Source: an uncultured Fidelibacterota bacterium
GTDB taxonomy: Bacteria; Fidelibacterota; Marinisomatia; Marinisomatales; Marinisomataceae
Assembly (NCBI GenBank): GCA_902578385.1
Contig: CACHCR010000002.1
Span: 62,001 to 126,000, forward strand
DNA: 64,000 nucleotides
Direction of reading: 5' to 3'
In this document: positions 50,756 to 51,334 of the stretch, in pieces
Layout of the letters: the number at the start of each line of letters is the position of its first letter
Position numbering within the stretch: position 1 is the first letter of the stretch
Translations under genes and position numbers: made by a program
Notes under the pieces: generated by a model
Told to the model about the DNA's origin: nothing
What the model saw: only the letters and a program-made list of their open reading frames with translations
Databases searched by the model: none

Positions 50756-50821
50756 ATTTTTCTCCTTATTAGTTATTGTAAAATTAATGGTTTTAAGAAA
50801 TAAAGGGAGGGAATATTATTG

Positions 50822-50895
50822 TACCCCGGACAGGATTTGAACCTGTGACCTACGGATTAGAAATCCGTTGCTCTATCCAGCTGAGCTACCGGGGC
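50822..50895 (-). tRNA. tRNA-Arg (anticodon TCT), CCA not encoded
   Basis: Reverse complement GCCCCGGTAGCTCAGCTGGATAGAGCAACGGATTTCTAATCCGTAGGTCACAGGTTCAAATCCTGTCCGGGGTA folds as a cloverleaf. Confidence 0.95.
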
Positions 50896-50976
50896 ATGGG
50901 CCAAATTTAACTAAATAATAAAAATTTTAAAGCTTTTTTGTAAAATTCTTCCGACGAGTCCCCGACGAGAAATTTC

Positions 50977-51005
50977 TTGCAAAAAATCTAGTTTAGTATT
51001 AGAAT
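50977..51005 (+). promoter_or_regulatory. Putative sigma70-type promoter for the small protein gene
   Basis: TTGCAA (50977-50982), 17 bp, TAGAAT (51000-51005). Confidence 0.5.
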
Positions 51006-51047
51006 ATTGAAATAAGCTTATTCACTAAACTTTTTAAGGAGAATAAA

Positions 51048-51275
51048 ATGGCTGAAAAAGTAAAAACATGTGGTGTTAGTAAAGAAAAAGGCTATCTATA
51101 TTACTTAGGTAAAGATGGTAATGTATGGCGCTCAGGTATGTCAAGAGGCGGATCTGGTGGCGGTAATGCAGAAAAAGTTGCTGACGCAGGCGTAACGCGT
51201 GAAAGTGGTTACCTATACTTCATCGATAAAGACGGTGATGTATCTCGCGCACCTATGGCTAGAGGTAGAGGTTAA
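51048..51275 (+). CDS. Small protein (75 aa) with internally duplicated GYLY-x2-DKDGDV-S-x-MxRG motif
   Basis: EKVKTCGVSKEKGYLYYLGKDGNVWRSGMSRG duplicated as EKVADAGVTRESGYLYFIDKDGDVSRAPMARG; AAGGAG SD; clearly less AT-rich than surroundings. Confidence 0.85.
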   Translation: MAEKVKTCGVSKEKGYLYYLGKDGNVWRSGMSRGGSGGGNAEKVADAGVTRESGYLYFIDKDGDVSRAPMARGRG

Positions 51276-51302: not shown

Positions 51303-51334
51303 AAAAAAGGAGCATTTCGATGCTCCTTTTTTTT
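51303..51334 (+). terminator. Rho-independent terminator with UUCG tetraloop
   Basis: AAAAAAGGAGCAT TTCG ATGCTCCTTTTTTTT. Confidence 0.92.

Follow-up and report, generated by a model that had tools for sequence, protein, structure and literature searches.

Marinimicrobia are bacteria that abound in the ocean and have essentially not been cultivated. In the 64,000-nucleotide stretch of DNA from one of them that we analyzed (hereafter the window; host genome Candidatus Marinimicrobia (SAR406), 0.95 Mb, 76% complete), a short gene encodes a 75-amino-acid protein with an internal repeat. Is this a genuine protein, how widely is it kept, and what could a protein made of two small repeats be doing in these cells?

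The core gene and its transcription unit

We found that the open reading frame at 51048-51275 encodes MAEKVKTCGVSKEKGYLYYLGKDGNVWRSGMSRGGSGGGNAEKVADAGVTRESGYLYFIDKDGDVSRAPMARGRG, in agreement with the translation quoted earlier. The preliminary description of this DNA had seen two copies of about 30 residues joined by a Gly/Ser linker. Both copies and the linker are present: the copies are 31-residue units identical at 17 of 31 positions (55%), and alignment of one half of the protein against the other scores 102, compared with 19.6 +/- 3.9 and a maximum of 39 for shuffled sequences (n = 2000). Between the gene and its close relatives, dS is 0.13-0.27 and dN is 0-0.03, and dN/dS lies between about 0 and 0.15 wherever synonymous divergence is unsaturated. 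Therefore, this is a real protein-coding gene, and it is under strong purifying selection.

The gene also forms a monocistronic unit of its own, as had been proposed from its promoter-like sequence, Shine-Dalgarno sequence and terminator (Table 1). The two promoter boxes are kept in 12 close loci while their surroundings vary, the Shine-Dalgarno sequence is conserved, and an intrinsic terminator is found no more than 130 nt past the stop codon in all 76 testable homologous loci, with a stem sequence that changes between them. A short GC-rich element between the divergent tRNA-Arg gene and the promoter is partly conserved in close relatives and is possibly a regulator site or a promoter element.

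The low AT content of the gene had been read as a hallmark of high expression. The gene is indeed GC-richer than its surroundings (0.436 versus 0.304 for the window), but this does not mark expression, because the excess is confined to the first and second codon positions (GC 0.56 and 0.51); at the third position GC is ordinary, 0.23-0.24 compared with 0.206 for the window median. The high GC content thus stems from a protein rich in Gly, Ala and Arg rather than from codon bias, and so provides no evidence of high expression. A groEL-like codon choice was not significant, being matched by 405 of 5000 simulations; groEL served as the sole codon-usage reference because the 76%-complete genome yielded neither ribosomal L2 nor EF-Tu. 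A literature search returned no usable expression report. The conserved stand-alone unit of promoter, Shine-Dalgarno sequence and terminator suggests high expression indirectly.

Table 1. Coordinates of the core gene, its surroundings in the window and related module loci
Feature	Location	Strand	Remarks
tRNA-Arg(TCT) gene	50821..50895	-	divergent, conserved neighbor; at most 450 nt upstream in 42/75 loci
Short GC-rich element	50945..50970		CCGACGAGTCCCCGACGAG; CCGAGGGGCCTCCG in relatives
Promoter	50977..51005	+	-35 TTGCAA, 17-nt spacer, -10 TAGAAT
Shine-Dalgarno sequence	51036..51041	+	AAGGAG
75-aa two-repeat protein gene	51048..51275	+	ATG start; 225 nt plus stop
Repeat unit 1	51054..51146	+	residues 3-33, EKVKTCGVSKEKGYLYYLGKDGNVWRSGMSR; three predicted strands
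Gly-rich linker	51147..51170	+	residues 34-41; low model confidence; length and sequence differ between homologues
Repeat unit 2	51171..51263	+	residues 42-72, EKVADAGVTRESGYLYFIDKDGDVSRAPMAR; three predicted strands; single-unit phage counterparts of 43-45 aa
Intrinsic terminator	51303..51332	+	13-pair stem with T-run
Own-genome paralogue, 773-aa DUF2779 protein with module inside	L083:2416-4737		PF11074 match
Own-genome island	L161:3941-18732 (G000:C1, about 211941-226732)		PDDEXK_3, DNA ligase, BRCT mini-protein, DUF2779 with module, GmrSD, KAP NTPase, PD-(D/E)XK nuclease
G151 module protein, 185 aa	L123:2028-2582	-	overlaps start of DUF2779 gene
G151 DUF2779 gene	L123:56-2038	-	two adjacent ORFs, 221 and 432 aa

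How widely is the core gene kept? It is present in 136 of the 199 sampled genomes of the phylum: 115 of 125 in the window's class (about 92%), nearly always once, versus 21 of 74 in the other classes. A second search found it in 168 of 245 genomes. In a scan of genome contigs, the best 80 of 332 relatives were all Marinimicrobia or Marinimicrobia-like, and identity to the window protein among these best 80 loci was 78-100%. In one contig labelled Cryomorphaceae (L076), the genes flanking the core gene are ordered as in Marinimicrobia; it probably belongs to a mislabelled or contaminated bin. One genome holds two full copies (G121:C1:69782-70003 and G121:C19:21987-22208), and a same-class genome, G249, gave two weaker matches, the best at E 1e-9. 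We detected no operon linkage of the core gene: its neighbors share no functional theme and differ between clades, and thus the gene stands alone.

Family and fold searches

The preliminary description recognized no characterized family for this protein and suggested an HMM search and a structure prediction. These gave single- and double-unit homologues and a confident all-beta model, with no match to a characterized family, so that the original impression stands. Searches of the core protein against Pfam, NCBIfam, PADLOC and PDB sequences returned nothing above threshold. The best Pfam match, FaeA (PF04703; E 0.0046), scored 17.7 bits against a gathering threshold of 20.7 and covered only 19 residues. 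This stretch, which includes GDVSRAPMARG, fits part of the profile of the FaeA/PapI-like winged-helix regulators, but the core model is predicted to have no helices and thus no helix-turn-helix. We rejected a match to phrog_9154 in PHROGs, a family of unknown function (25 residues at E 0.0003), since it seems pattern-driven and was absent for relatives and controls. A literature search found no paper printing the motif.

The AlphaFold2 model, built from a 32-row alignment, is all-beta (mean pLDDT 89, pTM 0.76) and predicts three strands in each half of the protein (residues 3-6, 16-20 and 26-30, then 42-45, 55-59 and 65-69). Residues 31-40 have a pLDDT of 66, and the linker is flexible in the model. 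Foldseek searches with the core model reached best E values of 0.56 in the PDB and 0.28 among viral models, none of them significant, and matches to the alpha-crystallin fold were discarded at a TM of about 0.3. No described family fits the 75-aa protein, and its predicted fold is without a significant match.

Cold-shock proteins of the CspA family, which are small beta nucleic-acid binders, resemble the core protein in that they are about 70 aa long, basic, all-beta and encoded by a stand-alone gene. The KGYLYYL stretch of the core protein also bears a loose resemblance to the RNP1 motif. However, CspA is a five-strand OB barrel, whereas the core protein is modeled as an internal repeat of two three-strand units. 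The CSD profile had no match among 32 members in an hmmscan against Pfam-A, and neither a CSD nor an OB structure is among the Foldseek matches listed for the core model.

The window protein has a pI of 9.4 compared with a median of 6.0 for the window proteome, in which 2 of 50 proteins are equally basic. Across 78 homologues, net charge ranges from +3 to +11 and the median pI is 9.8. Two copies are exceptions, the divergent L125 being acidic (net -2) and L084 near neutral (+1); basic charge is therefore not universal among module copies. By inspection, the N-terminus MAEKVKTCGVSKEKG (MAEKV...) has no hydrophobic signal segment.

Copies of the module in a nuclease, in islands and in phages

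Divergent cellular copies of the module are few, with three in the window's genus and one elsewhere. The host genome itself carries one such copy, 39-46% identical to the core protein (E 1e-11), within a DUF2779 protein. By prediction, DUF2779 is an RNase H-like superfamily domain with 3'-5' exonuclease activity, and it co-occurs with the PD-(D/E)XK-like DUF83 (PMC3985635). The paralogue is a true member of this family (PF11074; an RNase H-like exonuclease plus a PD-(D/E)XK-like half), scoring 94.3 bits against a gathering threshold of 23.3 (E 8.8e-27), whereas the 75-aa core protein has neither a PF11074 match nor a nuclease domain. The two-unit module occupies approximately residues 183-248 in the nuclease half, between the DIAFQ helix and the next strand. 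Nine further Marinimicrobia DUF2779 proteins aligned with it have a short loop at the insert site and no module. The nuclease-type residues D109, E122-V-K124 and Q158 of the paralogue are invariant in the alignment, and the D...ExK...Q motif is intact. The N-terminal half gave a weak model (mean pLDDT 60), and its PDB matches, including MGME1 and Cas4, were not significant (E 0.75-0.84).

The DUF2779 fusion is part of an island, and in two congeneric genomes the module is encoded by a separate gene. In G149, the gene for an 88-aa version shares a few nucleotides with the start of a QatA-related KAP NTPase gene. The islands of G149 (L163) and of the window's genome (G000, L161) adjoin the same chromosomal flank, the right-hand one in L161, with 93% identical DNA. 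They have in common a homologous KAP NTPase, an approximately 90-aa gene and a PD-(D/E)XK nuclease, and the G000 island holds in addition the DUF2779 fusion, a GmrSD-type protein and a DNA ligase. Judging from gene content, the locus looks like a variable defence-like island. In G151, the module protein has an extra, unrecognized C-terminal extension of about 110 residues (76-185), with nothing similar in the other two islands. The DUF2779 gene that it overlaps is either frameshifted or encodes a genuinely split nuclease.

The module also occurs in phages. Six of the 2.9 million IMG/VR contigs carry it, and searches of 50,697 phage and 72,556 plasmid records, representing cultured phages and plasmids, yielded no homologue; phage matches of a single-unit query at E 2-9 were discarded as too weak. 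In L087/L088 and L139, the phage proteins are single units of 43-45 aa, which indicates that a lone unit can stand alone. The phage versions, of one or two units, lie mostly near genes of DNA metabolism. In L086, the gene overlaps that of a DNA primase and a helicase is next; an exonuclease lies downstream of it in L139, and DNA methyltransferases are found near it in L085 and L088.

What the module may bind

What, then, does the module do? Tentatively, we infer that the 75-aa protein is a small, cytoplasmic, basic, all-beta protein that may bind DNA or RNA through two three-stranded units, and that nucleases and phages have reused it. The hint of nucleic-acid binding in the preliminary description finds circumstantial support in the insertion of the module into a nuclease-type protein, in the defence-like and phage DNA-metabolism genes near its copies and in the basic pI of the core protein. 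The argument from neighborhood is guilt by association, as DNA genes abound in the early regions of phages in any case. Neither sequence nor fold matched the module to any nucleic-acid-binding family in Pfam, NCBIfam, the PDB or Foldseek searches.

If the module does bind nucleic acid, the paired units would present to it a basic and aromatic face built from near-invariant residues (K12/R51, K22/K61, R28/R67, R33/R72 and Y18/Y57), and the one-unit phage versions might pair as dimers. The core protein would then be a general nucleic-acid-binding protein that works like cold-shock or histone-like proteins while being unrelated to them. Nucleases may have borrowed the module as a means of holding or selecting what they cut.

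We ranked four other explanations below nucleic-acid binding. The module could be an adaptor that binds a protein or peptide, docking on a conserved host machine in its core form and on a sensor or effector subunit in defence, in which case its ligand would not be nucleic acid. Separate module genes overlap different partners (a DUF2779 nuclease and a KAP NTPase) and the module is inserted within one; moreover, the aromatic and hydrophobic hairpin residues are conserved, and the two units are conserved to an extreme degree, which suggests that the partner is a fixed one. Yet the core version is strongly basic, phages carry single-unit versions and no conserved partner gene adjoins the core gene, and we consider an adaptor somewhat unlikely. 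A role at the ribosome or in translation, with the core protein binding rRNA, tRNA or the ribosome itself, would explain the near-universality of the gene within the class. It would also suit a small, basic, highly conserved and stand-alone protein whose gene has, at 42 of 75 loci, a divergent tRNA-Arg gene upstream. However, the tRNA neighbor is not universal, the gene is missing in most other classes of the phylum, and the divergent copies accompany DNA-processing and defence genes rather than translation genes; such a role is therefore unlikely.

Does the link with phages and defence point elsewhere? One- and two-unit phage versions near methyltransferases and nucleases, together with the defence-like genes that adjoin the module, could mean that the protein is a phage-derived counter-defence protein, such as an inhibitor of a nuclease or restriction enzyme, that was domesticated and fixed in the host lineage. 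We find this improbable, as the interior of a nuclease is an unexpected place for its inhibitor, a gene that is core to 92% of the class suggests a housekeeping role, and viral contigs with the module number only 6 in 2.9 million. It is highly improbable that the unit is a hairpin repeat binding carbohydrate or choline, or else a detached beta-propeller blade that oligomerizes into an assembly. Its G.hYYh..dG pattern does resemble choline-binding repeats, and choline/cell-wall-binding repeats (PF19127, PF19085) have the hairpin pattern G-x-h-Y-Y-h-x-x-x-G in common with it, with best E values of about 0.02-0.07; DUF5050 and fishelectin also gave weak matches. Nevertheless, all of these matches are insignificant and pattern-driven, the unit is 31-39 residues long rather than about 20, it occurs exactly once or twice per protein, and the protein has by inspection no signal peptide. 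Finally, we give little credence to a reading in which the module is an integrated sensor or decoy, whereby the module of a core host protein would have been copied into defence nucleases and NTPases, island enzymes would detect phage interference by means of this copied protein or its nucleic-acid ligand site, and phages would carry copies of their own. If true, a bacterial restriction-like island would thereby hold a counterpart to the decoys that plant NLR proteins have integrated.

Nucleic-acid binding remains the reading that we prefer. Small proteins that are confined to one lineage and have no known function already form a recognized kind, for example in the FESNov catalogue of novel gene families specific to clades of uncultivated taxa (PMC10849945). 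The core protein is like those families in being lineage-specific, conserved, under purifying selection and of unknown function; beyond such a description, its module also has nuclease-inserted and phage forms. Presence in about 92% of the class, high identity among the best 80 of 332 loci and the lack of a recognizable relative whose function or fold is known mark the protein as a strong candidate for a function that defines the lineage. Moreover, the module is found within a nuclease-type protein of the defence-like island, next to genes for a KAP NTPase and for DUF2779, and in regions of phage replication; these settings lead to a specific and cheap prediction, namely that this small protein of uncultivated ocean bacteria would bind nucleic acid.
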